Positions 29,582-44,578 of a DNA stretch of 64,000 bases are shown here, piece after piece. Under the pieces are notes generated by a model. That model did not search any database, was not told the DNA's origin, and saw nothing but the letters and a program-made list of their open reading frames with translations. The DNA is from Ulvibacterium marinum. Lineage in GTDB: Bacteria > Bacteroidota > Bacteroidia > Flavobacteriales > Flavobacteriaceae. The translations under genes were made by a program, and so were the position numbers. The stretch's first letter is position 1, and every line of letters begins with the position of its first letter. Where the stretch lies: positions 496,001 through 560,000 of the forward strand of contig NZ_RBCJ01000001.1 of assembly GCF_003626755.1 (NCBI RefSeq), written 5' to 3'.

Positions 29582-29613
29582 TTTGTTAAAAACTTCCCTG
29601 TACAGTAAATTTG
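29582..29613 (+). promoter_or_regulatory. Bacteroidota-type promoter of the sdh operon
   Basis: A -33 TTTG (TTG at 29583-29585) and a -7 TAAATTTG (29606-29613) are 20 nt apart, matching TTTG-N(19-21)-TAnnTTTG exactly. Transcription would start near 29618, leaving a leader of about 15 nt before the sdhC ATG at 29633. Confidence 0.75.
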
Positions 29614-29632
29614 TAGTTAAAACCAGCTACTA

Positions 29633-30301
29633 ATGAGTGGATTGATAAAGTCTTCAATTGCCCGAAAAGTTGTGATGGCTCTTTCGGGTCTATTTTTAGT
29701 GATTTTTTTAGTATTACATGTCACCATTAACCTCGCTTCCGTTATTTCCCCGGAGTTTTTTAATGAAGCCTCCCATTTCATGGGATACAATCCATTGGTG
29801 CAATTTATTATGCAACCTATTTTAATCGCCGGTGTCATTGTACATTTTGTGATGGGGTTTGTCCTAGAGTTACAAAACAAAGCGGCCCGTGGCATAGGCT
29901 ATGTGAAATACAAAGGTAGCGCCAATGCACCTTGGGTCTCACGGAACATGATTTATTCCGGCTTAGTGATCTTAGCTTTTCTGGGGCTTCATTTTTACGA
30001 TTTTTGGATTCATGAAATGGCATACAAATATGTTGAGGCAAACCCTGAAGATCCTACCCGGTACTATGCAGAGACGGTTGAAAAATTCGCTCCGTTTTGG
30101 CGAACTATTCTCTATGTGGTTTCCTTCGTGTTGCTGAGCCTTCATTTGTGGCATGGCTTTGCCTCATCCTTGCAAAGCATGGGTATAAACAATAAATACA
30201 CTCCTGCCATAAAATCATTTACAAAACTATTTGCGGTGGTCGTTCCCTTAGCATTTGCATTCATTGCTATCTACCATCACCTTAACCCAATAACACATTA
30301 A
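29633..30301 (+). CDS. sdhC: Succinate dehydrogenase/fumarate reductase cytochrome b subunit
   Basis: Codes for 222 aa with five transmembrane helices, as in the Bacteroidota type (TIGR02046) di-heme subunit. Conserved His residues for heme ligation sit in [46 protein letters not shown] and [13 protein letters not shown]. It anchors SdhA/B at the membrane and reduces menaquinone. Start ATG at 29633; sdhA follows after 2 bp. Confidence 0.96.
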
Positions 30302-30303
30302 TT

Positions 30304-32307
30304 ATGGGCGTATTGGACTCTAAAATTCCATCAGGGCCATTGGCCGATAAATGGGTCAAGCATAAAAACGAAATCGACCTTGTAAACCCTGCAAATAAGC
30401 GAAACATTGATATTATTGTGATAGGAACGGGTCTTGCGGGAGGTTCTTCTGCCGCTACCCTAGCGGAGCTAGGTTATAACGTAAAGACTTTCTGTTATCA
30501 AGATTCCCCAAGGAGGGCCCATTCCATTGCGGCTCAAGGTGGGGTAAATGCTGCAAAAAACTATCAGGGCGATGGGGATAGTGTATATCGCCTTTTCTAT
30601 GATACCGTGAAGGGAGGGGATTATCGCTCCCGGGAAGCCAACGTTCATCGGTTGGCCGAAGTGTCTTCCAATATAATCGATCAATGTGTGGCGCAAGGGG
30701 TCCCTTTTGCTAGGGAATATGGGGGTCTTTTGGATAACCGTTCCTTTGGTGGTGTATTGGTATCCCGTACTTTTTATGCCAAAGGCCAGACCGGACAACA
30801 GTTGTTACTTGGTGCCTATGCCGCCATGAATCGGCAAATTCAAAGGGGTAAGATAAAATCCTATACCCGACATGAAATGTTGGATTTGGTACTTGTGGAT
30901 GGCAAGGCGCGTGGAATCATTGCAAGGGATTTGGTAACCGGAGACATTGAAAGACATTCGGCACATGCCGTAGTCTTGGCCAGCGGGGGTTATGGAAATC
31001 TATTCTTCCTCTCTACCTATTGTATGGGGGCCAACGTTATGGCCGCCTGGAGAGCACACAAAAAAGGAGCTTTCTTCGCCAATCCGTGTTTTACACAAAT
31101 ACATCCCACTTGTATCCCCGTTTCCGGAGACCATCAATCCAAATTGACCTTGATGTCGGAATCCCTGCGAAACGATGGCAGAATTTGGGTCCCCAAACGC
31201 TTGGAAGATGCGCAGGCCATTCGGGAGGGCAAATTGAAACCGACCCAGTTGAAAGAAGAGGATAGGGATTATTATTTGGAAAGGAGATATCCCGCATTCG
31301 GAAACCTGGTACCTCGCGATGTTGCCTCCAGGGCTGCTAAGGAACGTTGTGATGCGGGCCATGGGGTAAATAAAACAGGAGAGGCCGTTTACCTCGATTT
31401 TGAAGCTGCCATCATGCGTTACGGCAAAGAAAAAGCCTATACCTCCGGTATTAAAAATCCGGATAAGGAAACCGTACGAAAACTAGGTAAGGAAATTGTC
31501 GCCGCCAAATATGGCAACCTGTTTCAGATGTATGAAAAGATTGTTGACGAGAATCCTTATGAGACCCCAATGATGATCTATCCTGCTGTGCATTATACTA
31601 TGGGCGGACTTTGGGTGGATTACAATCTACAGACCACCATCCCTGGTTGTTATGCCGCAGGAGAGGCCAATTTCAGCGATCATGGCGCCAATCGTTTAGG
31701 AGCATCCGCATTGATGCAGGGCTTGGCAGACGGATATTTTGTTTTGCCATATACCATAGGAGATTACCTATCGGACGATATTCGTACGGGTCCTATTTCC
31801 ACAGATACCCCAGAATTCGATACTGCTGAAGAGGAGGTCAAAAATCGAATTACAAAGCTGATGTCGGCCAAAGGAGAGCATTCCGTAGACTATTATCACA
31901 AAAAATTGGGCAAGATCATGTGGAACAAATGTGGTATGTCCAGAAATGAAAAAGAATTGAAGGAGGCCATTGCTGAAATTGCCGAATTGCGAAAGGATTT
32001 TTGGGAAAATGTAAAAGTAACCGGAAATCCCGATGATAAAAATCAAGAATTGGAGAAAGCAGGACGCGTGGCCGACTTTTTGGAACTTGGTGAACTCTTT
32101 GCCAAAGATGCCCTGCATAGAAACGAATCCTGCGGAGGACATTTCCGTGAAGAATACCAAACGCCCGAAGGCGAAGCCTTAAGGGATGACAAGAACTTCA
32201 AATATGTTGCTGCTTGGGAATACATAGGTGAGCCCAAGGACGCTAAATTACACAAGGAAGATTTGGTTTATGAAAATATTAAAGTGAAAACAAGAAGTTA
32301 TAAATAG
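30304..32307 (+). CDS. sdhA: Succinate dehydrogenase flavoprotein subunit
   Basis: Codes for 667 aa, typical for the Bacteroidota enzyme. Key sites are the FAD-binding [20 protein letters not shown] near residue 40, the covalent-FAD His in [17 protein letters not shown], the active-site [18 protein letters not shown] and the C-terminal [13 protein letters not shown] motif. It oxidises succinate to fumarate in the TCA cycle. The stop codon TAG at 32305-32307 is followed at once by an octamer repeat array and a four-helix-bundle gene, so sdhB is separated from sdhA by 461 bp. Confidence 0.98.
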
Positions 32308-32340
32308 GTTATTGTGTTAATGAGTTTTTAAGTTATAAGA
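32308..32340 (+). repeat. Octamer array, left arm of the sdh four-helix-bundle insert
   Basis: Four consecutive 8-nt units begin with GTT at 32308, 32316, 32324 and 32332: GTTATTGT, GTTAATGA, GTTTTTAA, GTTATAAG. The next unit (ATTGGGTA) contains the TTG start codon of the four-helix-bundle gene. The array abuts the sdhA stop codon without a gap. It is inverted relative to the array at 32720-32759. Confidence 0.75.
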
Positions 32341-32718
32341 TTGGGTAGTCTTAAATCTTTTGAGGAATTAGCTTGTTGGAAAGAAGCTCGAATTCTTCGG
32401 AATTTTGTCAAGGATTATATTATTCCTAAGCTTCCCAGTTCTGAAAAGTTTGAGTTAGCAAGTCAAATAAGACGCTCTTCTCGATCTGTAGGAAATAATA
32501 TTGCCGAAGGATTCGGTAGGTTTCATTATCAGGAGAACATCCAATTTTGCAGAATAGCTAGAGGCTCCTTAAATGAAACATTAGATCATGCCATAATAGC
32601 ATTTGATGAAAATTATATCTCCGAGAAAGTTCTACAGGAACTGCGGGATTTTCATGATAAAACCCAAAAAATTTTAAATGGTTATATCAAATATTTGAAA
32701 GATTCCAAGGTCAGTTAA
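32341..32718 (+). CDS. Four-helix-bundle protein (TIGR02436/S23-like), inserted in sdh operon
   Basis: Codes for 125 aa from a TTG start at 32341 (LGSLKSFEELACWKEA; no suitable ATG exists). The family core QIRRSSRSVGNNIAEGFGRF, followed by YQENIQFCRIARGSLNETLDHAI, matches the four-helix-bundle family first known from intervening sequences of 23S rRNA and related to Avd of diversity-generating retroelements. No reverse transcriptase or rRNA gene is nearby, so this is an orphan copy. It lies between sdhA and sdhB and is bracketed by inverted octamer arrays. Codon and base use are more AT-rich than in the sdh genes. Cellular role unknown. Confidence 0.93.
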   Translation: MGSLKSFEELACWKEARILRNFVKDYIIPKLPSSEKFELASQIRRSSRSVGNNIAEGFGRFHYQENIQFCRIARGSLNETLDHAIIAFDENYISEKVLQELRDFHDKTQKILNGYIKYLKDSKVS

Positions 32719-32719
32719 T

Positions 32720-32759
32720 AAATAAACTCAGTAACAAAATAACTGAGAAACAAAGTAAC
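32720..32759 (+). repeat. Octamer array, right arm of the sdh four-helix-bundle insert
   Basis: Five consecutive 8-nt units end in AAC, with AAC at 32725, 32733, 32741, 32749 and 32757: AAATAAAC, TCAGTAAC, AAAATAAC, TGAGAAAC, AAAGTAAC. Read on the other strand they are GTT-headed like the left arm, so the two arms form a degenerate inverted repeat around the gene. The array ends 9 bp before the sdhB ATG. Confidence 0.78.
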
Positions 32760-32768
32760 TTTTAAGAC

Positions 32769-33515
32769 ATGAAAATATATCTAAAAATATGGCGTCAGAA
32801 GGATGCAAGTTCCAAAGGCAAAATCGTTGATTATACCTTGAATAATGTAGAATCGGATATGTCCTTTCTGGAAATGCTGGATGTCCTTAACGAGGATTTG
32901 GTGGCAAAAGGAGAAGAGCCGGTAGAGTTTGATCATGATTGTAGGGAAGGTATCTGCGGAACATGTTCTCTTATGATCAATGGGCAACCCCACGGTCCCG
33001 ACCGCCTGATTACCGTTTGTCAGCTACATATGCGAAGCTTTAATGATGGGGACACCATCGTAATAGAACCGTTTAGAGCCAAAGCTTTTCCGGTAATCAA
33101 GGACTTGATCGTTGATCGAACTGCTTTTGATCGTATTCAGCAGGCCGGAGGGTATATTTCGGTTAATACATCGGGCAATCCCGTAGATGCCAATGCCATT
33201 CCGATTGAAAAGCACGTTGCGGACAAAGCCATGGATGCGGCTACCTGTATTGGCTGTGGTGCCTGTGTTGCCGCCTGTAAAAATGCAAGTGCCATGTTAT
33301 TCACCTCTGCCAAGGTTTCCCAATTTGCCTTGTTACCACAAGGTAGGGTGGAAGCCGCTGAGCGGGTACAGAATATGGTGCGCCAAATGGATCTTGAAGG
33401 CTTTGGAAACTGTACCAATACCGGGGCCTGTGAGGTAGAGTGCCCCAAGGGAATTTCCTTGGAAAATATCGCCCGCATGAATAGGGAGTATTTGAGTGCC
33501 TCCGTAGAAGGATAA
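32769..33515 (+). CDS. sdhB: Succinate dehydrogenase iron-sulfur subunit
   Basis: Codes for 248 aa. The [2Fe-2S] site is in [17 protein letters not shown] and the C-terminal clusters in [17 protein letters not shown] and [14 protein letters not shown], as in the family. It passes electrons from SdhA to the cytochrome b subunit. It is the last gene of the operon and is followed by a strong terminator. It depends on read-through of the four-helix-bundle insert unless a promoter lies inside it. Confidence 0.98.
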
Positions 33516-33530
33516 AAACTTTTAAGATTT

Positions 33531-33576
33531 AAAAAAAATCCCTGACTCCATTCAATGGAGTCAGGGATTTTTTTAT
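33531..33576. terminator. Strong bidirectional terminator after sdhB
   Basis: Arms ATCCCTGACTCC and GGAGTCAGGGAT (33538-33568 with a short ATTCAAT loop) are perfectly paired, preceded by eight A and followed by seven T. It serves the sdh operon on the plus strand and the convergent AraC/GyrI gene on the minus strand, whose stop codon lies at 33573-33575. Confidence 0.9.
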
Positions 33577-34499
33577 TTAACTGGGATACAGATATCCACA
33601 AAGAATACCCCCTCGGGGTGTTGTTTACCATTGTTATGATAAATTTCATGGTAATGGCCTTCCCTTAATTCAAAGTTGTTTTCCGGAATCCATAGCGTCA
33701 TACTATTCCACGCCTTTTCAAACTCCTCCACTTTGATTTGAAAACTGCCCACTGCAAACCTTCCCTTGGGAATGGTAAGCTTGCCTATTTCGCCATTTGT
33801 TTCCACATCTGCGTCAACCGTCAAACAGGCACTGGATTGCATTTTTGATTCATCGGTGACCCTAGGACTGTCATAATAGATTCCTACCATTTTGGTTTTG
33901 GGGAAGTTTAAAAGACCCCTAGGTCCGGCCCAATTCATCAATCTTTCGTAAACCTTTCCAATCCCGGAATACGCGCCCTGATGTCTAAGGTGGACTAAAT
34001 TCAATTCGGGCATTTCCTTTACTTCTACTTTTGTCTTCATTTGTAACCAGTTTTTTAGATTATCCATGCTGTAAAAGTATTTCTGGAAAGACACTTTGTT
34101 TTCTCCTTTCTTGCTTTCGATCTTGCCTATCTTGCTAAATTCGCTTTGCCCCTTTTTCTGAAACTCGGTAGCGCTCATTCCGTAAAACTTACGAAACGCC
34201 CTTGAGAAGGAATAAATACTTTTAAAACCATACTGATGGGCCAATTGGGTCAATGATTCGCTCTTCCCCGGATAGAATAACCGGCCGGCGATTTTTTCAA
34301 TACGCCTTCGGGTTATATAACCGTTCGGGGTCTCACCCAATAGGGCAGAGAAAATACGATGGAAATGAAAAAGTGAGAAACAGGCAATTTTGGAAAGTTC
34401 TTCCAAGGACAAATCTGCATCCAGGTTGTTTTCGATGTACTCCACAACCTTGTTAATCCTATGGATATACAGTAGCTGCTGTTGATTCCTATTTTCCAT
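33573..34499 (-). CDS. AraC-family regulator with GyrI-like effector domain
   Basis: Starting at ATG 34499 (MENRNQQQLLYIHRINKV) gives 308 aa; a longer form adds 23 unsupported residues. The N-terminal AraC HTH domain (LEELSKIACFSLFHFHRIF, then HQYGFKSIYSFSRAFRKFYGMSATEF) is followed by a GyrI/SOUL-like ligand domain (VKEMPELNLVHLRHQGAYSGIG … GRFAVGSFQIKVEEFEKAWNSM). This is the Rob/BmrR-type layout for sensing small hydrophobic compounds. Targets unknown; the vsr gene is divergent from it. Confidence 0.92.
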   Translation of the reverse strand: MENRNQQQLLYIHRINKVVEYIENNLDADLSLEELSKIACFSLFHFHRIFSALLGETPNGYITRRRIEKIAGRLFYPGKSESLTQLAHQYGFKSIYSFSRAFRKFYGMSATEFQKKGQSEFSKIGKIESKKGENKVSFQKYFYSMDNLKNWLQMKTKVEVKEMPELNLVHLRHQGAYSGIGKVYERLMNWAGPRGLLNFPKTKMVGIYYDSPRVTDESKMQSSACLTVDADVETNGEIGKLTIPKGRFAVGSFQIKVEEFEKAWNSMTLWIPENNFELREGHYHEIYHNNGKQHPEGVFFVDICIPVK

Positions 34500-34626
34500 T
34501 ACCCATAAATTTTCTTCTAAAAATAAGGGTTTCTCCAAGAGAAAATCAAGTAGGTTTAAATGTCGCAAGATTCGTTAAATTTCCTGGATATTTTCCTTTA
34601 CAAAACACTTTTGGTATTTTTAAACC

Positions 34627-35109
34627 ATGCCAAAAAACTATCAGGAAGAACGTATTAAGGTACCTCGATTCAATGAGGAATCAGGGTTCTATACTACCCC
34701 TGAACGTTCCAAGATTATGGGCAAGATCCGAGGCAAGAATACCAAACCGGAGCTGGCCTTCAGAAAGGCACTCTGGGCAGCTGGATTTCGCTATCGCGTA
34801 GACTACAAGAAATTGATCGGCAAACCTGATATCGCCCTAAAAAAATACAAAACGGTGATTTTTATCGATGGCGAATATTGGCACGGCCATAATTGGGAAG
34901 AACGGAAGCCAAAAATAAAGACCAATCGGGAATTTTGGATCGCCAAAATAGAACGAAATATGCAACGGGATAAAGAGGTAAATCTTGAACTAAAAGCATC
35001 GGGATATACTGTTTTTCGTTTCTGGGAGAGCAAAATAAAAAAGGAACTGGATGTTTGCGTGCACCAAGTCGTTTCCCATTTAAAGTCGGTTGAAAAGGCA
35101 TCGGATTAG
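34627..35109 (+). CDS. vsr: Very short patch repair (Vsr)-type endonuclease
   Basis: Codes for 160 aa. The Vsr fold is supported by MGKIRGKNTKPELAFRKALWAAGFRYRVDYK, the catalytic KPDIAL (Asp), FIDGEYWHGHNW and KIERNMQRDKEV. Vsr nicks next to T:G mismatches made by deamination of 5-methylcytosine. In E. coli Vsr three Cys bind a structural zinc; here these positions read GEYWHGHNW and FWESKI, with no Cys. No Dcm-type methylase gene is in the window. It could therefore be an orphan or have changed specificity. Confidence 0.88.
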   Translation: MPKNYQEERIKVPRFNEESGFYTTPERSKIMGKIRGKNTKPELAFRKALWAAGFRYRVDYKKLIGKPDIALKKYKTVIFIDGEYWHGHNWEERKPKIKTNREFWIAKIERNMQRDKEVNLELKASGYTVFRFWESKIKKELDVCVHQVVSHLKSVEKASD

Positions 35110-35167
35110 CCTTCACTCCTATTCATATAAGATATAAATCCGAGTCTACTAAAAAGCCAATCTATTT

Positions 35168-35884
35168 TCAAATATGCGCAATTTGTTTTCCTAGTATGGC
35201 ATAGAGCTGATCTATCTCACCAACTTTTATTTCAAAATCCGAATACTCCGGTGAATCGTTCAGACTTTTACATACCACAGTTTTAGTTTTCCTGTTATAA
35301 TCGCTGATTACTTTGCACATTACATTTCCTTTATAAACCAATATAGAGGCACCATTAGGATTGCCTTGCATATATCCCTGAATTTTGTCCAATTGTACAA
35401 GCTTCCCTAAAACTATGGACTTGAACGGGATACTGTTCAAAGAACCATCGTCCATGGAGTTATTGGAGATTTCAAAAGCCATATAATGTGCTACGGATAC
35501 TCGATCCAATACGAATCCAATTCTCGGTAAAGTTTGAACAAAGACTTTTTTTGCATATTGTTTTGAGAATTTGCCATATTGCTCGGTCAAAAGCAAGGGA
35601 GCGTAAATCAGATATTTACCTGGGGCCAGTTTGGTTATGGTGTGTCCCTTTTCAACCGTTTCAGGGGTATCATATGCCGCACCCTTTTCATTGAGGTTTT
35701 CATTGGAATATAACTCTGCAATAGTGACATCAAAATATTGCGCAATTTTTGTAAGATTTTTTATGGGAATATTGGCATCTTTTTTTTCATAAAGCTGAAT
35801 AGTGCGCAAACTTACCCCTATGGCCTTGGCCAAATCGGTCTGATTTATACTTTTTTTACGCCTTAATTGCTTCAATATAAACAT
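35168..35884 (-). CDS. XRE-family repressor with S24-like domain
   Basis: Codes for 238 aa. The N-terminal HTH (INQTDLAKAIGVSLRTIQLYEKKDANIPI) is of XRE type; the C-terminal part carries a LexA/CI-like S24 region with ISNNSMDDGSLNSIPFKSIVLG, where the Ser in NSMDDG fits the catalytic serine of S24 peptidases. The catalytic Lys is not certain by eye. Such repressors control prophage or stress genes; no phage genes are visible here. Three TTTGTA half-sites lie in the divergent promoter region, suggesting autoregulation. Confidence 0.85.
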   Translation of the reverse strand: MFILKQLRRKKSINQTDLAKAIGVSLRTIQLYEKKDANIPIKNLTKIAQYFDVTIAELYSNENLNEKGAAYDTPETVEKGHTITKLAPGKYLIYAPLLLTEQYGKFSKQYAKKVFVQTLPRIGFVLDRVSVAHYMAFEISNNSMDDGSLNSIPFKSIVLGKLVQLDKIQGYMQGNPNGASILVYKGNVMCKVISDYNRKTKTVVCKSLNDSPEYSDFEIKVGEIDQLYAILGKQIAHI

Positions 35885-35974
35885 AAGTTTGTATTATTGT
35901 GTAATAATCCTACATATTTTGTAGAAAAACGAAATTAAACTGCACTATTTGTATATCGTTTACAAACAAATATA
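35884..35974. promoter_or_regulatory. Operator-like half-site array and promoter of the XRE repressor
   Basis: TTTGTA occurs at 35888, 35918 and 35948, exactly 30 bp apart. The third copy forms a 19-bp inverted repeat with TACAAA (35948-35966). Other local palindromes are ATTATT-GTGT-AATAAT (35893-35908) and CTACA-TATTT-TGTAG (35910-35924). A minus-strand -7 element TATATTTG (35967-35974, full TAnnTTTG match) sits beside the third site, so a bound repressor would cover its own transcription start. Confidence 0.5.
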
Positions 35975-36091
35975 ACAAAATACGCAACAGGACTATACAA
36001 TGCTCAAACCACGGCCCTGGAACATAATTGGGAAAAGAATCAATGTATCACCATACTATAAGTTTATTAACCCCCTAATACACTACAACCC

Positions 36092-36373
36092 ATGTTTACA
36101 GATCAGGAATACGGAAAACCCATTAACGAGAAATTATCACTAACATTAAGAAGAAACACTACCAAAGATGATTTTGCCAATGTGGCCACCACCACAGGTG
36201 TAAGCTTTTCAACCATTAGAGACGTAATCTATAGAACCAATAGTCTTACAAAATCAAACTCCAAAGCCATTGAAGAGCTTCTTCGGATCGCCTTTGACAA
36301 TTCCTTGGCAAGACAGCTTTTAGCAGAGGGGGATAAGCACTACCTGCACAAATTTTTACAAACTCATAGGTAA
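36092..36373 (+). CDS. Small protein divergent from XRE repressor
   Basis: Codes for 93 aa without membrane segments. The region FANVATTTGVSFSTIRDVIYRTNSLTKSNSKAIEELLRIA has the spacing of a helix-turn-helix (helix, TGVSFSTIRDVI recognition helix), although it lacks a strong family match by eye. Divergent transcription from the S24 repressor, across shared operator-like repeats, gives a cI/cro-like arrangement. Function unknown. Confidence 0.65.
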   Translation: MFTDQEYGKPINEKLSLTLRRNTTKDDFANVATTTGVSFSTIRDVIYRTNSLTKSNSKAIEELLRIAFDNSLARQLLAEGDKHYLHKFLQTHR

Positions 36374-36436
36374 ACATTCCCTTTTACCCAATCAGTAAGT
36401 GCTAAATTGTCTATTTTTAGGGCAATACTTGTGTTC

Positions 36437-37597
36437 ATGGCAATTTTTAAGACCAATATCCCCTCCAAACTCCCCAATGCAAAGACCACTATTTTCACTA
36501 CGGTGGGTAATCTGGCCAGAAAACATAAGGCCATTGATCTTTCCCAAGGGTTTCCCAATTTTGAGGCCGATAAAAAGCTAATGGGTTTGGTATCCGATGC
36601 CATGCTACATGGCCATAACCAATATGCCGCTATGCAGGGTTACTATGGACTTCGGGAAATCATCGCCGAGAAAATAGAAAAGTTGCACAACCGAAGTTAT
36701 AATCCTGAAAAAGAAATTACGGTAACCGTCGGGGCCACTCAGGCCATTTTTACGGCGATTACGGCGTTTGTCCACCCAGGTGATGAAGTCATAGTACTAA
36801 AGCCTGCTTACGACTGTTACGAGCCGGCCATTGAAGTAAACGGTGGTGTTACCGTACCTGTCCAGTTGAAGGGAAAGGATTATCACGTGGACTGGGAAGA
36901 ATTTCGAACCAGGATTACCCCAAAGACCAGAATGGTCGTCATCAACACCCCACATAATCCCAGTGGTCGGATTTTCTCCAAAACCGATATGCTACAGCTT
37001 CAGGAAACTCTACGGGACACCAATATCATTTTGGTCAGTGATGAGGTATACGAGCATATTGTTTTTGATGGAAAGGAACACGAAAGTGCTTCGCGCTTGG
37101 ATGATTTGGCCTCTCGTAGTTTTGTCTGTGCCTCTTTTGGAAAGACCTTTCACGTTACCGGATGGAAAATGGGTTACTGCGCCGCACCGGCCGAACTGAT
37201 GCACGAATTCCGAAAAACACACCAATTCGCCGTTTTCTGTGTGGATCATCCCGTGCAGCGGGCCATGGCAGAGTACTTAAAAAATGAAGCGCACTATTTG
37301 GAGCTGAAGGACTTTTACCAACAAAAAAGGGACTATTTCCTAAGTAGGCTTGCAGGTTCCAAATTTAAGTTTATACCTTCGCAAGGCACCTATTTTCAAT
37401 TGCTGGATTATACGGCAATAACCCATGAATCGGATGAAGTTTTAGCGCGACGATTAATAGTGGATTACAAATTGGCAAGTATTGCCATATCCTCTTTCAA
37501 TTTGAATAACCGGGACGATAAAGTGCTACGATTTTGTTTTGCCAAAACTGAGGATACGTTGGAAAAGGCCACCGAAATTCTTAGGCGCGTTCAATAA
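36437..37597 (+). CDS. PLP aminotransferase, methionine aminotransferase type
   Basis: Starting at ATG 36437 gives 386 aa (MAIFKTNIPSKLPN). Fold type I features are visible: DLSQGFPNFEAD, TVGATQAIFTAITAFVHPGDEV, NTPHNPSGRIFSK, LVSDEVYEHIVFDG and the PLP-Lys in ASFGKTFHVTGWKMGY. Sequence layout matches class I/II enzymes of the YbdL/methionine aminotransferase (kynurenine aminotransferase-like) group. It is convergent with the serine hydrolase gene with only 3 bp between stop codons. Confidence 0.93.
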   Translation: MAIFKTNIPSKLPNAKTTIFTTVGNLARKHKAIDLSQGFPNFEADKKLMGLVSDAMLHGHNQYAAMQGYYGLREIIAEKIEKLHNRSYNPEKEITVTVGATQAIFTAITAFVHPGDEVIVLKPAYDCYEPAIEVNGGVTVPVQLKGKDYHVDWEEFRTRITPKTRMVVINTPHNPSGRIFSKTDMLQLQETLRDTNIILVSDEVYEHIVFDGKEHESASRLDDLASRSFVCASFGKTFHVTGWKMGYCAAPAELMHEFRKTHQFAVFCVDHPVQRAMAEYLKNEAHYLELKDFYQQKRDYFLSRLAGSKFKFIPSQGTYFQLLDYTAITHESDEVLARRLIVDYKLASIAISSFNLNNRDDKVLRFCFAKTEDTLEKATEILRRVQ

Positions 37598-37600
37598 GGT

Positions 37601-38755
37601 CTATTTCAAGGCTGTGTTCAGCATAGTCATAAACTCGCCCAATTTACTGGGCTCCAACCAACGCGTTACCACCACCAAATCGTTCTCATTGTCAATAACA
37701 ATGTAGTTACCTCCAAAGCCAGCTGCGAAATAAATGTCTTCGGAAAGCCCCTCCCAATGCCGATCGCCTTTTTTGTTCAACCACCACATAAAACCATAAT
37801 TCACATTGGGTTTGGAGGATTCAATGGCTTTTTTTATCCAATCCTGGCTAATGAGTTGTTGATCTTCCCATTTCCCTTTGTTGAGGAACAACAAACCAAA
37901 GCGGGCCATGTCCTCCGTGCTAATAAACATTCCGGCCCCGGAATGACCACCACCGGTAACCGATTTCATCCGAACACCATCGATTTCTGTCCATGCATCG
38001 TAATACCCGTGCCATCTCCAGGTCGTAGAAGCACCTATTTTGTCCATTAGATTCTCCTTAAGTACCATGGGTAAAGGTTTTCGCCATACATGGGTCAACG
38101 CATAGGCCAACACATTAACGCGGACATCATTATATTCCATTATGGTTCCCGGTTCATTGAGCTTTCGGAATTTCCAATCATCCAAATCGCCTTCCCGAGG
38201 TGGACGGTCAGCCCAATCCTTTCCTCCCCAAAGTTCACCGGACCAATCGGAATTCTGTTGCAATAAATGCGCCCAGGTAATCTTCCCATTGTGTTCCCCA
38301 TCAAAAGTGCCGTCCCAGATATAGTTTGCCGCCTTATCACTGGTTTGGGCGATTAGCCCGTGATCCACGGCAAGTCCAGCCATTGTGCTTAAAAAGCTCT
38401 TGGTAACGCTAAAGGTCATGTCTACCCTTTTTGTGTCCCCCCATTGGGCTATGATATAACCGTTTTTCAAAATCATTCCGGCCGGGCCACCTCTTTTTTT
38501 GGTAGGGCCCAGGATTTCATGAAAAGGTTCCCGTTCAAAACCTTTAAGAATGGCGATACGCAAATCCCTTGAACCTGAATATTCATTTTCGAGGGCAAAA
38601 TCAAGTACTCGTTGAAGTTTATTTTCATCGATTTTAAAAGTGGCCGGGGCCTTGATTTCCCATACCTTGTTTCTTTCCGGAAAATAATAGTCCTTCTGGG
38701 CAAATAGGGTATTCAAGGAAAAGAGATAAAACAGAATAAGGCTGGAATACTTCAT
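37601..38755 (-). CDS. Beta-lactamase-family serine hydrolase, secreted
   Basis: Codes for 384 aa with a signal peptide (YSSLILFYLFSLNTLFAQ). The SxxK motif is SVTKSFLSTMAG, the YxN-like motif is in GTIMEYNDVRVNVLAYAL and the third motif region reads YFAAGFGGNYIVIDNEND. The class C-like penicillin-binding fold covers beta-lactamases, esterases and D-amino peptidases. No specific substrate is claimed. It is followed in the operon sense by the aminotransferase in opposite orientation; the GNAT gene lies upstream (11-bp gap) and is probably cotranscribed. Confidence 0.9.
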   Translation of the reverse strand: MKYSSLILFYLFSLNTLFAQKDYYFPERNKVWEIKAPATFKIDENKLQRVLDFALENEYSGSRDLRIAILKGFEREPFHEILGPTKKRGGPAGMILKNGYIIAQWGDTKRVDMTFSVTKSFLSTMAGLAVDHGLIAQTSDKAANYIWDGTFDGEHNGKITWAHLLQQNSDWSGELWGGKDWADRPPREGDLDDWKFRKLNEPGTIMEYNDVRVNVLAYALTHVWRKPLPMVLKENLMDKIGASTTWRWHGYYDAWTEIDGVRMKSVTGGGHSGAGMFISTEDMARFGLLFLNKGKWEDQQLISQDWIKKAIESSKPNVNYGFMWWLNKKGDRHWEGLSEDIYFAAGFGGNYIVIDNENDLVVVTRWLEPSKLGEFMTMLNTALK

Positions 38756-38766
38756 TTCAAAAGAAT

Positions 38767-39300
38767 TTATTCAGAATCCAAATTAATCAAATCAAACCGC
38801 ATAAGCCAATCGGTCTGTTCGTCCTTTCCGATAAAATAGGGATGGATCCCGAATTTTGTGAATCCCTGCCTTTGATAAAACCGAATGGCCTTAGTGTTCT
38901 TCTCCCAGACCCCCAACCAAAGAAAGTGTTTCCCTTTTTCAGAGGCAATTCGCTTTATTTCGGCAAGCATCCATGCCCCTATTCCTGAGCCTTGAAAGGT
39001 ATTTAGAACATAGATGCGTTCCAATTCGATACTAGTAACTGACTTTACTTCGGTCTGGGCCAAATTTTCATTCAACTTAAAATAACCCGCCGTCTGGGTA
39101 TCAACCTTAACGAAGTAGAAGCTTACATCCTTATCCTGTAGCTCGGCCAATAAGGCATCCCTATGAAATGCCGTACGCAGGTAGTCCTTAAAGTCTTCTG
39201 GGTCGTTATCCGCTTCAAAGGCGTCCTTGAATGTTCTTAGAGACAGTTCAACAAGTTCATCCAAATTATTTTGGTTGCATTTTTGAAGAAGTAAATGCAT
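38767..39300 (-). CDS. GNAT-family N-acetyltransferase
   Basis: Starting at ATG 39300 (MHLLLQKCNQNNLDELVEL) gives 177 aa. The acetyl-CoA-binding motif A is ERIYVLNTFQGSGIGAWMLAEI (Q-G-S-G-I-G) and motif B is LWLGVWEKNTKAIRFYQRQGFTKFG. Members of this subgroup resemble spermine/spermidine or PaiA-like acetyltransferases, but the acceptor is unknown. It lies upstream of the serine hydrolase gene. Confidence 0.92.
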   Translation of the reverse strand: MHLLLQKCNQNNLDELVELSLRTFKDAFEADNDPEDFKDYLRTAFHRDALLAELQDKDVSFYFVKVDTQTAGYFKLNENLAQTEVKSVTSIELERIYVLNTFQGSGIGAWMLAEIKRIASEKGKHFLWLGVWEKNTKAIRFYQRQGFTKFGIHPYFIGKDEQTDWLMRFDLINLDSE

Positions 39301-39332
39301 TTGGTTTGGGCCCATACCCAAAATTAGAAAAA

Positions 39333-39369
39333 AGAAAAGGAGCAGTGTAGGTTATACTGCTCCTTTTCT
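39333..39369 (-). terminator. Strong terminator after the 35-aa ORF
   Basis: Arms AGAAAAGGAGCAGT and ACTGCTCCTTTTCT (14 bp, perfect) enclose a 9-nt loop. On the minus strand the stem ends in TTTTC and is followed by TTTTTTCTAATTTTG. It lies 18 bp after the stop codon of the small minus-strand ORF at 39388-39495 and upstream of the GNAT start. Confidence 0.85.
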
Positions 39370-39387
39370 AGAATTTTTACCAAAATG

Positions 39388-39495
39388 CTATAGCATAAAT
39401 AGTTTCTTGGTCAACATGACAATACCGCTAAAAAAATCGTTTTTGTACACTTGAATTTCTTCTTTGGTCGGAGCATGGTTAATTTGGGCTTCCAT
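39388..39495 (-). CDS. Candidate 35-aa small protein
   Basis: A minus-strand ORF begins with ATG 39495 and encodes 35 aa: MEAQINHAPTKEEIQVYKND, then FFSGIVMLTKKLFML. The first half is polar and possibly helical, the second half is hydrophobic. Evidence for a real gene: it is the only ORF between scoB and the GNAT gene, and a strong terminator of the same strand follows 18 bp after its stop. No recognised ribosome binding site or -7 element was found upstream, and I do not recognise a family. It could also be the tail of a longer untranslated RNA. Confidence 0.4.
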   Translation of the reverse strand: MEAQINHAPTKEEIQVYKNDFFSGIVMLTKKLFML

Positions 39496-39785
39496 AGATC
39501 TGTGGGTTTTGAAAAAAGTCAGATTTGGGGTCTGAAACTTTTGAATTGATTTGTCTGGTAAAGGTACTTTGGAGACTTGCCAAATGGAAACTATTGTTGT
39601 GAAGACTTCACAAAATGTTGTGAAAGGGATGAACGGTCATTTTCTTCGATGAAATGCCTCGATGAACGGCATGTCTTTCAAAAAAGTCTTGGAAACAAGG
39701 TTGAAAATTAAAGGCCGATAATCGGAATTTCTTTGAACAAACATGCTTCGTTCCACTGCTTGGTATTTATAAGTAGTCGTGAACT

Positions 39786-40439
39786 TTAAAGTGTCATTTC
39801 CGGCACATCGCCTTTAAGGATCAAAGCACCCTCTGTGGCTTTTTTTATATCCTCTACATTCACTCCAGGTGCACGTTCCAGCAATTTAAACCCTTTTGAA
39901 GCGACTTCCAATACCGCTAGATTCGTTACTATTTTGGTGACACAGCCTACCCCGGTAAGCGGAAGGGTACATCTCTTTAGAAGCTTGGATTTGCCTGCCT
40001 TGTTGGTGTGCATCATGGCTACAATGATATTTTCCGCACTTGCCACCAAGTCCATGGCGCCACCCATTCCCTTCACCATTTTTCCAGGAATCTTCCAATT
40101 GGCTATATCACCGTTCTCCGCCACTTCCATAGCTCCTAAAATAGTAAGGTCCACATGTCGGCCGCGAATCATTCCAAAGCTAGTGGCCGAATCAAAAAAG
40201 GATGCACCGGGCAGAGTGGTAATGGTCTGTTTCCCGGCGTTGATGATATCCGCATCCTCTTCTCCATCAAAAGGAAAGGGGCCCATCCCCAATACGCCAT
40301 TTTCACTTTGGAATTCGACATTGATATCATTACGTACAAAATTGGCCACCAAAGTTGGAATGCCTATCCCTAGATTTACGTAGTAACCATCCTTGACTTC
40401 TTGGGCGATACGTTTTGCTATTCCTTCTTTGTTTAACAT
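39786..40439 (-). CDS. scoB: 3-oxoacid CoA-transferase subunit B
   Basis: Codes for 217 aa. The catalytic Glu lies in QSENGVLGMGP, and the oxyanion and substrate regions are DLTILGAMEVAENGDIANWKIPGKMVKGMGGAMDLV, as in the beta subunit of succinyl-CoA:3-ketoacid CoA-transferase (SCOT). The enzyme moves CoA between succinyl-CoA and acetoacetate or related acids. It is separated from scoA by a four-helix-bundle gene and an octamer array, so co-expression of both subunits depends on that insert. Confidence 0.95.
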   Translation of the reverse strand: MLNKEGIAKRIAQEVKDGYYVNLGIGIPTLVANFVRNDINVEFQSENGVLGMGPFPFDGEEDADIINAGKQTITTLPGASFFDSATSFGMIRGRHVDLTILGAMEVAENGDIANWKIPGKMVKGMGGAMDLVASAENIIVAMMHTNKAGKSKLLKRCTLPLTGVGCVTKIVTNLAVLEVASKGFKLLERAPGVNVEDIKKATEGALILKGDVPEMTL

Positions 40440-40498
40440 CTTAAGTTAGTGTAAAATTTAATCCGAAATCTGTACGATTATGATATTCTCAAACTTTT

Positions 40499-40530
40499 AA
40501 ATGTAACAATAAAACAATGTATCAATAGAG
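40499..40530. repeat. Octamer array, downstream arm of the sco four-helix-bundle insert
   Basis: On the plus strand CAAT recurs at 40507, 40515 and 40523, with AAAT at 40499: units AAATGTAA, CAATAAAA, CAATGTAT, CAATAGAG. It is inverted relative to the ATTG array at 40912-40947, so the two arms bracket the minus-strand four-helix-bundle gene. Confidence 0.7.
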
Positions 40531-40556
40531 CTGTATTCTAAAGTTGAGGCATCCAA

Positions 40557-40913
40557 CTACTTTTTGGATTTCTTCTTACTAGTACTCACTATTTTGTACA
40601 AAATGAGTCCCAATTCGTCAATGCTTGTCCTTAAATCCATATTGTGCGGATATGATTTTGCCTTCTCACATAGTTCAAGCCAGTATTTGGTTTCTTCCAA
40701 TTCCTTAAGGGCAATTTTCATCTTATGGATAAAGTCAGCCATGCTCTCCGCATTTTGTGCCTCATGTACATTAGCTCCGATACTTGTTCCCGATTTTAAT
40801 AGTTGATTGGCTACTGTGAATTTTCTCTTTTCTTCCAGAAGTTCACAAAATTCAATAATCATAAGTGCAAAATCAATGGATTTCTCCAGAACGGGATTTT
40901 CCCTCTTTGGCAT
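40557..40913 (-). CDS. Four-helix-bundle protein (TIGR02436/S23-like), inserted in sco operon
   Basis: I choose the ATG at 40913 (MPKRENPVLEKSIDFALMI), giving 118 aa. An upstream ATG at 40937 would add eight residues (MAQLNNGA) that are encoded by octamer repeat units, so it is probably not part of the protein. The family core QLLKSGTSIGANVHEAQNAES is followed by FIHKMKIALKELEETKYWLEL. It belongs to a different subgroup of the family than the copy at 32341. It sits between scoA and scoB on the same strand, with inverted octamer arrays on both sides. No rRNA gene or reverse transcriptase is nearby. Role unknown. Confidence 0.92.
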   Translation of the reverse strand: MPKRENPVLEKSIDFALMIIEFCELLEEKRKFTVANQLLKSGTSIGANVHEAQNAESMADFIHKMKIALKELEETKYWLELCEKAKSYPHNMDLRTSIDELGLILYKIVSTSKKKSKK

Positions 40914-40947
40914 TGCTCCATTGTTTAATTGAGCCATTAATTAATTT
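40912..40947. repeat. Octamer array, upstream arm of the sco four-helix-bundle insert
   Basis: On the plus strand ATT recurs at 40912, 40920, 40928, 40936 and 40944, the first three as ATTG. In the gene sense the units are TAATGGCT, CAATTAAA, CAATGGAG, CAATGCCA; the last contains the ATG at 40913. The array overlaps the scoA stop codon (40941-40943). Confidence 0.72.
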
Positions 40948-41642
40948 TTAACACGAACCGTTCGCTGTTCAATTCGCTTTTCGTAGTGTTCTCCTTGAAA
41001 TATCCGTTGCACGAATATTCCGGGAATATGAATCTGATTGGGATCCAAACCACCAGCTGGAAGCAATTCCTCTACCTCTGCTACGGTAATTTTTGCCGCC
41101 CCACACATGCAGGGATTAAAGTTACGTGCCGTACCCTTGAATATAAGGTTTCCGGCCTCATCACCTTTCCAAGCCTTTACAAAGGCAAAATCTGCAGTAA
41201 AAGCTTCTTCCAGTACGTACATTTTTCCTTTAAATTCTCGGGTTTCCTTCCCTTTGGCCACTTCCGTTCCATACCCGGCCGGCGTATAGAATGCAGGAAA
41301 TCCGGCTTGGGCCGCCTTACACTTTTCTGCCAAGGTTCCCTGTGGTGTAAGCTCTACCTCCAACTCACCGCTTAACATTTGCCGTTCAAACTCATCGTTC
41401 TCTCCCACATAGGAGGAAATCATTTTTTTAATCTGATGCTTTTGTAGCAGTAGCCCCAAACCAAAATCGTCTACGCCAGCGTTATTGGAAATACAGGTAA
41501 TCTCAGCAATTCCCAGGCGTACTAGTTCTGCAATGGCATTCTCGGGGATTCCGCAGAGGCCAAAACCCCCAAGCATAAAGGTCATCCCATCTTCCACACC
41601 CTTCAAAGCCTCTTTTACATCGGTTACGGTCTTACGTATCAT
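40941..41642 (-). CDS. scoA: 3-oxoacid CoA-transferase subunit A
   Basis: Codes for 233 aa, the alpha subunit of SCOT. The conserved region [31 protein letters not shown] near the start and [33 protein letters not shown] near residue 150 are typical. It is first in the minus-strand operon scoA, four-helix-bundle, scoB. Only 3 bp separate its stop from the octamer-encoded upstream ATG of the insert. Confidence 0.95.
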
Positions 41643-41648
41643 GTGGTA

Positions 41649-41677
41649 AATATTGAGTTATGAAGTTACTCGATATT
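41649..41677. repeat. Short inverted repeat with octamer spacing upstream of scoA
   Basis: Arms AATATTGAGT and ACTCGATATT (9 of 10 positions paired, one mismatch) enclose TATGAAGTT. GTT recurs at 41657 and 41665, one octamer apart (GTTATGAA, GTTACTCG). It starts 7 bp upstream of the scoA ATG and looks like a shorter member of the same repeat family. Confidence 0.45.
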
Positions 41678-41743
41678 TGGGAAATAGGAAAGCATAAAAC
41701 TCCAAAGTACTGCTGATTTTCAAGTAAGTGCTGCCAGCTTTTT

Positions 41744-44089
41744 TTAGAAGTCAAGATCGTCTAGGTCGTCCTCGGAATCCACTCCCTTTTGCAATTCCTC
41801 AATTACCTTGGTACAATCCACATTAATGGACAATTCTTCCGGTTCCGGAAAATCCTCCTCGGATACGCCCAATTCTTTATTGGCATAGTTTTTTCTCATG
41901 TAGAGACCCCAAATTGGGAGGGCCATGGAAGCTCCTTGTCCATAGGCTAGGCCCCGAAAATGGATGGAGCGTTCTTCACCACCGACCCAAACGCCAGTGA
42001 CCAAATTGGGTACCATTCCCATAAACCAGCCATCACTTTGGTTTTGTGTGGTTCCCGTCTTACCGGCTATGGGATTAGTAAATTCATAAGGATATCCCGT
42101 AACAACTTTCTTATATACCGTTTGGTTTGTTGCAAAAGTATGGCGTAACCGGGTTCCTGAACCCCCTTCGGTTACCCCCTTCATCAAATCTACCATAGCA
42201 TAGGCCACATCCTTGCTGAGCACATCTTTGGTTTCCGGTACATACTCATATAATACCGTACCATTTTTGTCCTCGATACGTGTGACCATAACCGGTTTCA
42301 CATACACGCCTTGGTTTGCAAAAGCGCCATAAGCCCCCACCATCTCATATACATTGAAGTCCTCCGTTCCCAAGGCAATGGATGGAACTTCTAGAATTTC
42401 CTTGGTAAGTCCCAAATTCTTTACGATAGATACTACAGACTTAGGACCGACCCGATCGATTAACTGTGCGGTAACCGTATTTATGGAATTGGCCAAAGCA
42501 TGTTTCAGCGTATGCATCCTTCCGGAATATTTTCCATCCGAATTATCTGGACACCACGCTTCCATATTCCCATGTTTCAGAGGTTCAATGCAATATTTGG
42601 TATCCGGTAACGAATCACAGGGTGATAATCGAAGTTGGTCAATCGCAGCTGCATACACAAAAGGCTTAAAAGTGGATCCGGCCTGCCGAGCACCTTGGAT
42701 GACATTATCATATTGAAAATGTTTGTAATCGATTCCTCCTACCCATGCTTTTACATGGCCCGTTTGGGGTTCCATGGACATCATGGCCGCACGCAAAAAT
42801 GATTTGTAATACCGGATGGAGTCCATTGGGGTCATGATGGTATCTTTTTCATGGACATCGCTCTTCCAATCAAAGACCGACATTTCTACTTTTTTAGTAA
42901 AGGACTCTCGGATTTCCTTTTCGGATTTTCCTTCATTCTTCATTTTTCGCCATCGTTCGGAAGTTTTTATGGCTTTTTCCATAATTCTATTTGTCTCCTC
43001 CGGGGTCAAATCGAGAAAAGGAGCCGTCTTATTGCGATCTGGTGTATTCTGTACAAAAAACTCCGCCTGTAGACGTTCCATGTGTTGGTTCACGGCATCT
43101 TCGGCATTTTGTTGCATTCTTGAATCAATAGTGGTGTAGATTCGGAGTCCATCCAAATACAGATTCCATTGATCTCTTTCCCCTTCCAAGGCCGGTTTCG
43201 GATTTTTCTTAATCCATCTATTCATGAAACCTTGTAGATACATCCTGAAGTAGGTTGCAATACCATCACTATGCGATTCAGGATGATAACTCAGATTTAT
43301 TTCCAGTGCTTGAAGCGAATCTTTTTCCGACTCGCTTATGTATTCATATTTTGCCAATTGAGCCAAAACAATATTCCTTTTTTTCCATGTCAATTCTTCA
43401 CGCCGTAAGGGATTGTAGAGCGATGAATTCTGTAACATACCCACCAACATGGCAGATTCTTCGATTTTTAGGTCTTTGGGCTCCTTTCCAAAATAAATTC
43501 TCGACGCGGATCTGATGCCATCCGCATTGTTACCGAAATCGTAGATGTTTAGATACATCTTGATAATCTCTTCTTTTGTATAACTGCGCTCTAATTGCGT
43601 GGCGATGACCCACTCCTTTGTTTTTTGCTTTATAGTCTCGAATTTGTTTCTAGATCGTACTCCCACAAAAAGCTGCCGCGCCAATTGCTGTGAAATTGTA
43701 CTGGCACCTCCTCGTTTTCCCAAAAAGAAAAGTGCCCGCAACGTCCCACGTGCGTCAATACCGGAATGACTATGAAAACGGATATCTTCGCTGGCAACCA
43801 AAGCATTTACCAAATTCTCGGGTAAATCCTTATACGAAACATCAGTGCGATTGTCGTCTAAATAGAACTTCCCTATTAATTTGCCATCCGAGGAAATTAT
43901 TTGTGAAGCCAGATTAGTCTGCGGGTTTTCCAAATGCTCGTAAGGGGGCAGTTCTCCCAAAAATCCCCAGGAAGCCAATAAAAAAAGAAATGCAACAGAA
44001 AGAATCCCCATTGCAAAGAGTATCCAGAACCATTTTATGAACCTAAAAAATCCTTTGTCGTTCTTTTTCTTTACCGTTTTTTTTGCCAT
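41744..44089 (-). CDS. Class A penicillin-binding protein (PBP1A type)
   Basis: Codes for 781 aa: a short cytoplasmic lysine-rich tail, one N-terminal membrane helix (WFWILFAMGILSVAFLFLLASWG), a GT51 transglycosylase domain (ASEDIRFHSHSGIDARGTLRA, GASTISQQLARQLF) and a transpeptidase domain with SxxK (STFKPFVYAAAID), SxN (ANSINTVTAQL) and KTG (IAGKTGTTQNQSDGWFMG). It polymerises and crosslinks peptidoglycan in the periplasm. It follows gldH by 3 bp in an operon with ricT. Confidence 0.96.
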   Translation of the reverse strand: MAKKTVKKKNDKGFFRFIKWFWILFAMGILSVAFLFLLASWGFLGELPPYEHLENPQTNLASQIISSDGKLIGKFYLDDNRTDVSYKDLPENLVNALVASEDIRFHSHSGIDARGTLRALFFLGKRGGASTISQQLARQLFVGVRSRNKFETIKQKTKEWVIATQLERSYTKEEIIKMYLNIYDFGNNADGIRSASRIYFGKEPKDLKIEESAMLVGMLQNSSLYNPLRREELTWKKRNIVLAQLAKYEYISESEKDSLQALEINLSYHPESHSDGIATYFRMYLQGFMNRWIKKNPKPALEGERDQWNLYLDGLRIYTTIDSRMQQNAEDAVNQHMERLQAEFFVQNTPDRNKTAPFLDLTPEETNRIMEKAIKTSERWRKMKNEGKSEKEIRESFTKKVEMSVFDWKSDVHEKDTIMTPMDSIRYYKSFLRAAMMSMEPQTGHVKAWVGGIDYKHFQYDNVIQGARQAGSTFKPFVYAAAIDQLRLSPCDSLPDTKYCIEPLKHGNMEAWCPDNSDGKYSGRMHTLKHALANSINTVTAQLIDRVGPKSVVSIVKNLGLTKEILEVPSIALGTEDFNVYEMVGAYGAFANQGVYVKPVMVTRIEDKNGTVLYEYVPETKDVLSKDVAYAMVDLMKGVTEGGSGTRLRHTFATNQTVYKKVVTGYPYEFTNPIAGKTGTTQNQSDGWFMGMVPNLVTGVWVGGEERSIHFRGLAYGQGASMALPIWGLYMRKNYANKELGVSEEDFPEPEELSINVDCTKVIEELQKGVDSEDDLDDLDF

Positions 44090-44092
44090 TAC

Positions 44093-44578
44093 TTATGGGT
44101 CACTTTTTTCAATTTGGAAACCGACATCCGTTATTCCCTGCAAGTTTACGATTCCTTCCACTTTACCATTTTTTCGCATAGCATGGGCCAAGCGTAAAGT
44201 ATATACGCCAGAAGAAGGAAAAACGATGTTCTCCTTGTACCATAATTTGTTTTCCTTTATGCTACCATAGCCTTTCCCCAGCCAACTCCCGTCCGGTCTG
44301 GCCATTTCATATTCCAAAGTATCAGCAATTGTATGCCCAGAAGGAAAATCGAGTTCGGCTATCAAAAAGAGGTTACTATAAGGGAAGGTCTCATCATTTC
44401 TTACATTGATAAACACATTATGGGAACGTAAGGTATCCATTTCGGAAAATGTAAATTCAATAGTGTTTTCCTTGTTCCAGAAGCCCTTGTCGGTAGCCTT
44501 GTATTCTGCTTTTATCAAAGCGTCATTACAGGAAATAAAGAGTAACATAACCGTCAGGGCAAGTAAACTCCTAAGCAT
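44093..44578 (-). CDS. gldH: Gliding motility lipoprotein GldH
   Basis: Starting at ATG 44578 gives 161 aa with a lipoprotein signal (LRSLLALTVMLLFISC-NDA); a longer reading would bury the signal. The body contains GFWNKENTIEFTFSEMD, VFINVRNDETFPYSNLFLI and YTLRLAHAMRKNGKVEGIVNLQGI, the typical GldH pattern. GldH is required for gliding and for the associated type IX secretion in Flavobacterium johnsoniae. The order ricT-gldH-PBP1A is a conserved flavobacterial cluster. It overlaps ricT by 8 bp. Confidence 0.93.
   Translation of the reverse strand: MLRSLLALTVMLLFISCNDALIKAEYKATDKGFWNKENTIEFTFSEMDTLRSHNVFINVRNDETFPYSNLFLIAELDFPSGHTIADTLEYEMARPDGSWLGKGYGSIKENKLWYKENIVFPSSGVYTLRLAHAMRKNGKVEGIVNLQGITDVGFQIEKSDP

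Follow-up and report, generated by a model that had tools for sequence, protein, structure and literature searches.

Why should a small four-helix-bundle gene lie exactly between the subunit genes of two unrelated enzymes, each time enclosed by short repeats that are inverted around it? This question is raised by a 64-kb stretch of the 5.9 Mb genome of Ulvibacterium marinum (the window, in what follows), in which a profile search places one S23p/intervening sequence protein (IVP) gene at the sdhA-sdhB junction and another at the scoA-scoB junction. The sdh gene scores 107 bits and the sco gene 78.4 bits against PF05635 (cut-off 33.8), and 99.9 and 92.1 bits, respectively, against TIGR02436 (cut-off 24). 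From sequence comparison across the family, we conclude that the gene and its arrays are best regarded as a single heritable insertion unit, found in many phyla. The parts of the two elements and their host genes are as follows.

30304 to 32307, + strand: sdhA, the upstream host gene (succinate dehydrogenase flavoprotein; NF005749, 1174.6 bits); the array starts at the base directly following its stop codon.
32308 to 32347, + strand: sdh upstream array, five octamers GTTAnTnn (sequence reading, arm-match shuffles, period-8 scan).
32341 to 32718, + strand: four-helix-bundle gene (S23p/IVP) with its TTG start in the last octamer (PF05635, TIGR02436, AlphaFold2).
32712 to 32759, + strand: sdh downstream array, six octamers, the inverted complement of the upstream motif (sequence reading, arm-match shuffles).
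32769 to 33515, + strand: sdhB, the downstream host gene (NF005746, 431 bits).
40941 to 41642, - strand: scoA, the upstream host gene (TIGR02429, 257.8 bits).
40911 to 40942, - strand: sco upstream array, four octamers, overlapping the N-terminal codons of the IVP gene (sequence reading, shuffles).
40557 to 40937, - strand: sco four-helix-bundle gene (PF05635, TIGR02436; dN/dS 0.16 against the same site in genome G001).
40500 to 40531, - strand: sco downstream array, four octamers, of AATGTAAC type on the + strand (sequence reading, period-8 scan).
39786 to 40439, - strand: scoB, the downstream host gene (TIGR02428, 320.7 bits).

The sdh upstream array reads GTTATTGT GTTAATGA GTTTTTAA GTTATAAG ATTGGGTA, and its downstream counterpart, as reverse complement, GTTACTTT GTTTCTCA GTTATTTT GTTACTGA GTTTATTT ATTAACTG; the sco upstream array, on the - strand, reads AATTAATG GCTCAATT AAACAATG GAGCAATG, and the downstream one, on the + strand, AATGTAAC AATAAAAC AATGTATC AATAGAGC. 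An earlier, sequence-only reading of the window had claimed two four-helix genes between enzyme subunit genes and octamer arrays inverted around both, and this is borne out by the profile matches at the two junctions and by the sequence of all four flanks. It had also placed the start codon in the last upstream octamer, which holds for sdh, where the TTG within ATTGGGTA is the earliest in-frame ATG, GTG or TTG, but for sco applies only to the second in-frame ATG, that of CAATGCCA, the first (40937) lying within the same array. The array it saw upstream of scoA comes down to one weak pair, GTTATGAA GTTACTCG, and is unconvincing. A period-8 scan of the 64 kb gave only two segments over threshold, both at the flanks of the sdh and sco elements, and two such matches anywhere in the window were also found in 38 of 200 block-shuffled windows; the window alone is thus modest evidence, and the case rests on the family. 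The arm-to-arm match was equalled by 2 of 200 shuffles for sdh and by none of 200 for sco. At period 7, a single segment passed (59771-59806), which with a shuffle mean of 1.46 is within block-shuffle expectation.

Is the pairing of gene and array then a property of the family? The window's genome holds 12 PF05635 matches; the repeat signal in their flanks is strongest at lag 7 and returns as harmonics at 14, 21 and 28, the downstream side showing it best. Of 60 relatives, 37 carry a match over the cut-off. The loci listed for these matches, 60 of the other listed places and the sdhB and scoB panels make up a set of 161 loci and 115 family open reading frames (ORFs), from which ORFs shorter than 95 aa, duplicates and edge cases were dropped, leaving 103 distinct genes with both flanks, mostly of Flavobacteriales. 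For the best 28-nt match at lag 7, the mean is 17.5 in upstream and 17.2 in downstream flanks; shuffles and control flanks of other genes (140 and 178) give about 12, the controls being flat and without a 7/8 signal. Under a log-odds cut, 158 of the 206 arms count as arrays of lag 7 or 8, compared to 11 of 206 when shuffled; counted by single lags, 131 of the 206 pass at lag 7, 40 at lag 8 and 7-24 at each other lag. The 158 arrays are made up of 80 upstream and 78 downstream arms (out of 103 each), and 67 elements have one in both arms; the median is 5.7 units per array upstream and 5.4 downstream. Assigned to the better of the two periods, 80 of the 103 elements have period 7 and 23 have period 8. 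As such, repeat arrays are indeed a family trait, but the octamer that the sequence-only reading took for its unit is ruled out family-wide: period 7 dominates, and the two elements of the window belong to an 8-nt minority. In one element (L006, at G000:C6:967888), 15 exact CCCGTAA units (16 with one variant) lie downstream and about two degenerate ones upstream, a strongly one-sided expansion.

Units of a gene plus inverted arrays at operon junctions do recur as a family, as had been proposed (103 elements, 31 loci not titled Bacteroidota, 12 plasmid loci), and they are not restricted to Flavobacteriaceae. In the scan of named genomes, the best 80 of 587 loci were kept, of which 49 are Bacteroidota and 31 have titles without that word (the title of L238 gives no phylum). 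Among these 31, lag 7 passes in 18 of 31 upstream and 17 of 30 downstream flanks, lag 8 in 6 of 31 and 8 of 30, and other lags in 0-3; the upstream arm matches the reverse-complemented downstream arm with z >3 in 22 of 30. The 49 Bacteroidota loci pass at lag 7 in 33 upstream and 28 downstream flanks, at lag 8 in 15 and 10, and at other lags in 1-6. The plasmid sample comprised 12 of the 41 records with a match, all 12 of them cyanobacterial, with arrays on both sides in 10 of the 12 and upstream only in the other two. Several of eleven loci from a viral collection carry arrays as well, four of the eleven being near-identical. On three of the cyanobacterial plasmids (L243, L244, L246), the S23p gene lies inside a cas6-S23p-cas4 or cmr2-S23p-cmr3 operon; S23p genes within cas loci were known earlier, an excerpted report counting 18 (PMC3936711). 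A KSB1 and a Nitrospirae metagenome-assembled genome (L165 and L170) share a near-identical period-8 motif, AAAGGnAC, at 67% protein identity, and this likeness between phyla suggests horizontal transfer.

What ties an array to the gene that it encloses? Paired with its own partner, an arm reaches z 4.2, against 0.24 for swapped arms, and exceeds 2 in 75 of 103 elements against 11 of 103; motif similarity is 0.73 between arms within an element and 0.36 between elements. The sequence-only reading had called for comparing the array consensus with the protein subgroup, and motif and period do go with the protein, the motif following it rather than the site. Both arrays are present in 141 of 189 elements; among these, for elements at different sites, motif similarity rises with protein identity, from 0.341 (<35%) through 0.376 (35-45%) and 0.450 (45-60%) to 0.645 (>60%); permutation gives 0.375 (sd 0.010) for the 45-60% class, and none of 500 permutations reached the observed value in either of the two upper classes. 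Where two elements share a site but their proteins are at most 35% identical, similarity is 0.331 (22 pairs). Even between phyla, with labels taken from record titles, pairs of 45-50% identity have a similarity of 0.424 (n=340; reached in 1 of 500 permutations) and those of 50-80% one of 0.516 (n=140; in none of 500), and below 45% it is at or under the permuted 0.376. Furthermore, period clusters on the protein tree, with 10 changes versus 15.4 and none of 500 shuffles as low, a contrast that is inflated by related rows among the 75. At scoA-scoB, genomes G009 and G015 carry arrays of ATTTGAAA type and G000, G001 and G026 arrays of AATGTAAC type; those of G002 look like ATTTGAAA type by eye, and its protein groups with those of G009 and G015. 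The two array types thus match two protein branches even though G000, G001 and G002 share one genus. Read from sequence, this co-inheritance of motif and protein is the strongest evidence that the protein would recognise its array. A residue-motif scan puts a single column, K110, just over the corrected threshold (z 3.9 versus 3.82), a lead only, with positions 34, 107, 113 and 118 under it. The motif-linked residues K107, K110, N113 and Y118 cluster in helix 4 of the sdh protein.

Where do such units sit, and do they come and go? Of 102 elements, a longest-ORF rule puts 96 between neighbours that are both on the strand of the element, compared to 324 of 620 (52%) ordinary genes. Eleven junctions recur, several of them occupied by unrelated protein branches; the names hisF, folD, hemW and tpiA are those we take them to bear from our reading of the sequences. 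At hemW, G000 and G020 share one protein branch and G001, G002 and G013 a second; G009 has a hairpin without a gene at this junction, and G023 a gap of 18 nt. At hisF, stop and start are spaced by 1 base in G001, and its sister species G000 and G002 have an element there, with the neighbouring genes alike. The folD junction of G001 retains a remnant of the G000-type element, seemingly decayed by eye, and that of G002 holds another type. The tpiA junction was set aside because the neighbour gene differs between species. Empty-site alleles, which the sequence-only reading had named as a test, are present at the hisF and sdh junctions: in 30 sdhA-sdhB loci the gap is 6-16 nt in 14, 44-117 nt in 12, filled by the gene in three (in one of them interrupted by a stop) and unassignable in one. 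Of ten mid-size gaps put through the strict inverted-array scan, four pass. In this panel (L102-L131) the sdhA stop codon is TAG instead of TAA in 9 of the 12 loci with a mid-size gap and in 1 of the 14 with a short one, as would fit a spacer that starts within this codon. The S23p genes themselves are under purifying selection, with dN/dS of 0.06-0.16 in six of ten pairs, dS being saturated in the other four. Gain, loss and replacement are visible at one junction within the genus of the window.

Gene-less relatives of these units also occur, one of them in the window.

4788 to 4851, - strand: mini element without a gene, lying in the spacer ahead of sufB, with the ATTTGAAG motif at period 8 (sequence reading; sufB by PF01458).

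The sequence-only reading had reported this array at the sufA-sufB junction, and the 64-nt spacer indeed holds two ATTTGAAG units plus their complement, that is ATTTGAAGATTTGAAG and its complement; sufB is supported by Pfam, and sufA is the name given by that reading. Strict mini-hairpin scans gave no match in the window, although this unit is visible by eye, and it does not match the elements of its own genome (p=0.75). Elsewhere, the gene-less unit at the hemW junction of G009 carries the motif of the G009 sco element (L271 with L137, p<0.0005), and unit L279 of G000 that of L002 (p<0.0005). Five of 21 gene-less units match an own-genome element of the same period at p<=0.05, three of the five in the same locus; two further units are without an own-genome element of matching period, and Fisher's combined p of 3.5e-6 is inflated by the same-locus pairs. 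A Nostoc plasmid has, over 100 kb, 15 arrays of period 7 and two of period 8, while each other lag gives 0-3; its GGGAACA arrays are found around S23p and also elsewhere. A looser scan of 678 kb found 28 pairs at lag 7 and 9 at lag 8 (5 in shuffles for each), and with 24, 16, 25 and 21 pairs at lags 9, 10, 11 and 12 it is unspecific for 7/8; some of its matches (L107, L108) resemble ordinary terminators. Under a second strict rule, lags 7-8 gave three gene-less pairs and other lags one in 400 kb of G009, and one each in 464 kb of G000. An exact ATTTGAAR dimer was matched 22 times in 61 genomes, against 11 times for the reversed pattern and 4 for a scrambled unit; about nine of the 22 look by eye like chance in coding DNA, and 8 are in genome G053. 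The scans for gene-less copies are only partly specific. Also in the window is a metallo-beta-lactamase-fold gene (PF00753; 2396-3334, - strand), flanked by sufB and an ABC ATPase gene that we take for sufC. An ORF between the two elements (34627-35109, + strand) seems to resemble a Vsr-type mismatch endonuclease.

How might such a unit work? The AlphaFold2 monomer of the sdh protein has four helices (pLDDT 96), and Foldseek relates the model to Xcc0516 (2gsc, TM-score 0.88), BT_0352 (2rld) and Avd (4dwl, 8ub7). In predicted sense-RNA folds, arms pair over at least 10 bp in 59 of 71 elements, and in 17 of 71 when combined with the arm of another element. The sdh unit has a predicted closing stem in its sense fold (z -2.1); the best fold of the sco unit (L011) contains no arm-to-arm pairs. 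Upstream arms are richer in G than in C in 93 elements and the reverse in 6 (control 113 versus 154), and downstream arms are richer in C in 71 and in G in 25 (control 142 versus 126). Between RNA and DNA the pairing statistics are neutral, whereas the sense bias and the precedent in rRNA speak for RNA. The likeliest reading, to which we give an even chance, is that the array of an element is recognised in the transcript by the element's S23p protein, so that the unit would be a messenger version of the rRNA intervening sequence. Such a unit, one S23p/IVP gene with two inverted 7/8-nt arrays that belong to the gene's protein lineage, lies in the sense direction, from the stop codon of one operon gene to the start of the gene that follows. 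Once transcribed, its two arrays could form a stem of some 20 bp whose loop contains the S23p gene, as in 23S rRNA intervening sequences, and an S23p ring would bind the repeated motif of its own array. An excerpted report describes the Xanthomonas S23p protein as a homopentameric ring (PMC4990558), and such a five-fold ring, together with the median of 5.4-5.7 units, suggests about one unit per subunit, although counts vary widely. Cleavage of the RNase III type would then make the unit a processed cassette, both neighbours staying translatable. The origin of new copies, their transposition and their excision we infer; the unit is probably selfish, and a benefit to the host is also conceivable.

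Several observations weigh against recognition of the array in RNA. Linkage, besides recognition, may lie behind the co-inheritance of motif and protein. Column-permuted arms pair in 58 of 71 elements, so that own arms do no better and the shared consensus alone suffices for pairing; the alignment of the arms beats permutation only mildly (27 of 103 at p<=0.05). A signature of G.U tolerance between arms was not found (212 versus 218), and compensatory or G.U-tolerant pairing is rejected as proof of selection on RNA, no such signal being present in the arms. Unit counts range from 2 to 18 without a peak at five, and two detectable arrays are missing in 48 of 189 elements. By eye, the arrays of L243, L248 and L214 seem directly rather than invertedly repeated. 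No rRNA family matched in the 40 loci scanned, so that the link to rRNA rests on literature, and there the Coxiella authors, in the excerpted text, doubt that S23p is made in vivo and hold the RNA to be more important (PMC4990558).

Some of these points would suit a mobile element at the DNA level, similar to REPIN-RAYT, in which S23p reads terminal inverted sites in DNA and some host nuclease or replication event moves units and hairpins; we see this as possible, though rather doubtful. The G.U asymmetry that RNA would lead one to expect is missing, many unrelated sites are used and the same site repeatedly, and gene-less hairpins of similar build stand at the same junctions, some of which share their motif with an S23p element of their genome (L271/L137, L279/L002) or replicon (GGGAACA). 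However, with only five of the 21 gene-less hairpins doing so at p<=0.05, three in the same locus, this sharing is limited; the Pfam match of S23p is without a catalytic domain, a bias of 96 in 102 towards the sense strand is unexpected for a pure DNA element, and inspection by eye of the hisF and sdh panels gave no recognisable target-site duplication, the flanks there being too diverged for a firm answer.

The exact placement from stop to start, and the purifying selection on the gene, could also be expected of a regulator serving the host, with the hairpin tuning expression or translational coupling of the flanking genes and S23p controlling its own operon via the arrays, as suggested in an excerpted report for hairpins of the cyanobacterial short tandemly repeated repetitive (STRR) sequences, e.g. 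between hupS and hupL (PMC2670836). A conserved function of the site is poorly compatible with tight empty junctions being common in relatives (6-16 nt in 14 of 30 sdh loci, 1 nt at hisF in G001), with one site being held by unrelated elements in different genomes, or with the seemingly decayed folD unit of G001, and we consider such a role unlikely. Less likely still is that the arrays are passive, slippage-prone inverted repeats born of replication errors, with S23p riding along without recognising them. Arms do look internally homogenised, and CCCGTAA in L006 shows that an array can grow on one side; yet neutral non-coding DNA should have lost its motif by 45-60% protein identity, where the motif stays above permutation, also between phyla, and control intergenic flanks lack the 7/8 signal.

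S23p proteins go back in the literature to 1993 (reference entry) and are still described, in the excerpted text, as being without known function (PMC4990558). Already known, from such excerpts, are heptameric repeats ahead of the S23p start in the Coxiella intervening sequence, where an RNase III site falls at the first of them (PMC4990558), and tandem hepta- or octanucleotides elsewhere; a link of such arrays to S23p as a family feature was not found in the open-licence literature. The tie between array motif and protein lineage offers a direct test of what S23p binds, can serve as a model of contact between Avd-fold rings and nucleic acid, and is relevant to the presence of S23p genes between operon genes, cas operons included. 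Through it, a class of bacterial repeats that has been puzzling is connected with a protein family first met in split ribosomal RNA.

Of the known systems, the intervening sequences in 23S rRNA of Coxiella and Leptospira are close in build, with an S23p ORF in a unit of about 430-500 nt and terminal inverted repeats closing a stem, as far as the excerpted report describes them (PMC4990558). A closing stem is predicted likewise for sdh and in 59 of 71 elements, the sco unit being without one. In contrast, the present units lie in operons between protein genes, here at sdhA-sdhB and scoA-scoB, and across phyla they are flanked on either side by arrays whose motif is specific to the lineage; Rfam gave no match in window positions 28000-46000. 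The likeness to Avd of diversity-generating retroelements is one of predicted fold (TM-score 0.77 to 4dwl; also the retroelement ribonucleoprotein 8ub7/8ube), with a Foldseek E of 0.08 and 6% identity. Spread driven by reverse transcriptase is rejected: of ten element-bearing genomes searched, eight lack any RVT_1 match, and the two matches lie away from the window and from the listed S23p genes, the sole one in the window's genome lying at C6:1215838, more than 600 kb away. REPIN-RAYT systems, too, comprise a protein gene between short inverted motifs plus gene-less copies, whereas the present units have tandem 7/8-nt arrays rather than single palindromes, and the window's genome has 12 copies of the protein gene. 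No RAYT (Y1 transposase) was found between the arrays, where PF05635 is the sole gene; the rest of the genome was not searched for RAYT.

This leaves the tandem heptanucleotide repeats described separately in several phyla: STRR sequences in cyanobacteria, also noted in rnpB (Vioque 1997, reference entry in PMC2858038), GGGAATC in Xanthomonas, TAACTGA in Beggiatoaceae, and paired octa- and heptanucleotide sites in Geobacter metallireducens (PMC2670836, PMC4692102, PMC4679880, PMC2700814). These are likewise tandem 7-8 nt units, mostly intergenic, which form inverted pairs in Xanthomonas and Geobacter and hairpins in cyanobacteria, and the present arrays are hairpin-capable, intergenic tandem units of 7 nt, the two elements in the window being a period-8 variant. 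Where those reports, as excerpted, name no cognate S23p, the present arrays enclose a gene whose lineage tracks their motif. Tentatively, and well short of an even chance, many unexplained arrays of tandem hepta- and octanucleotides in bacteria, these among them, may be one class: arrays read by pentameric S23p/Avd-fold proteins via a lineage-specific 7/8-nt code, which would spread gene-bearing units and gene-less hairpins through mRNA and rRNA transcripts, in the manner of REPIN-RAYT systems but without a transposase.

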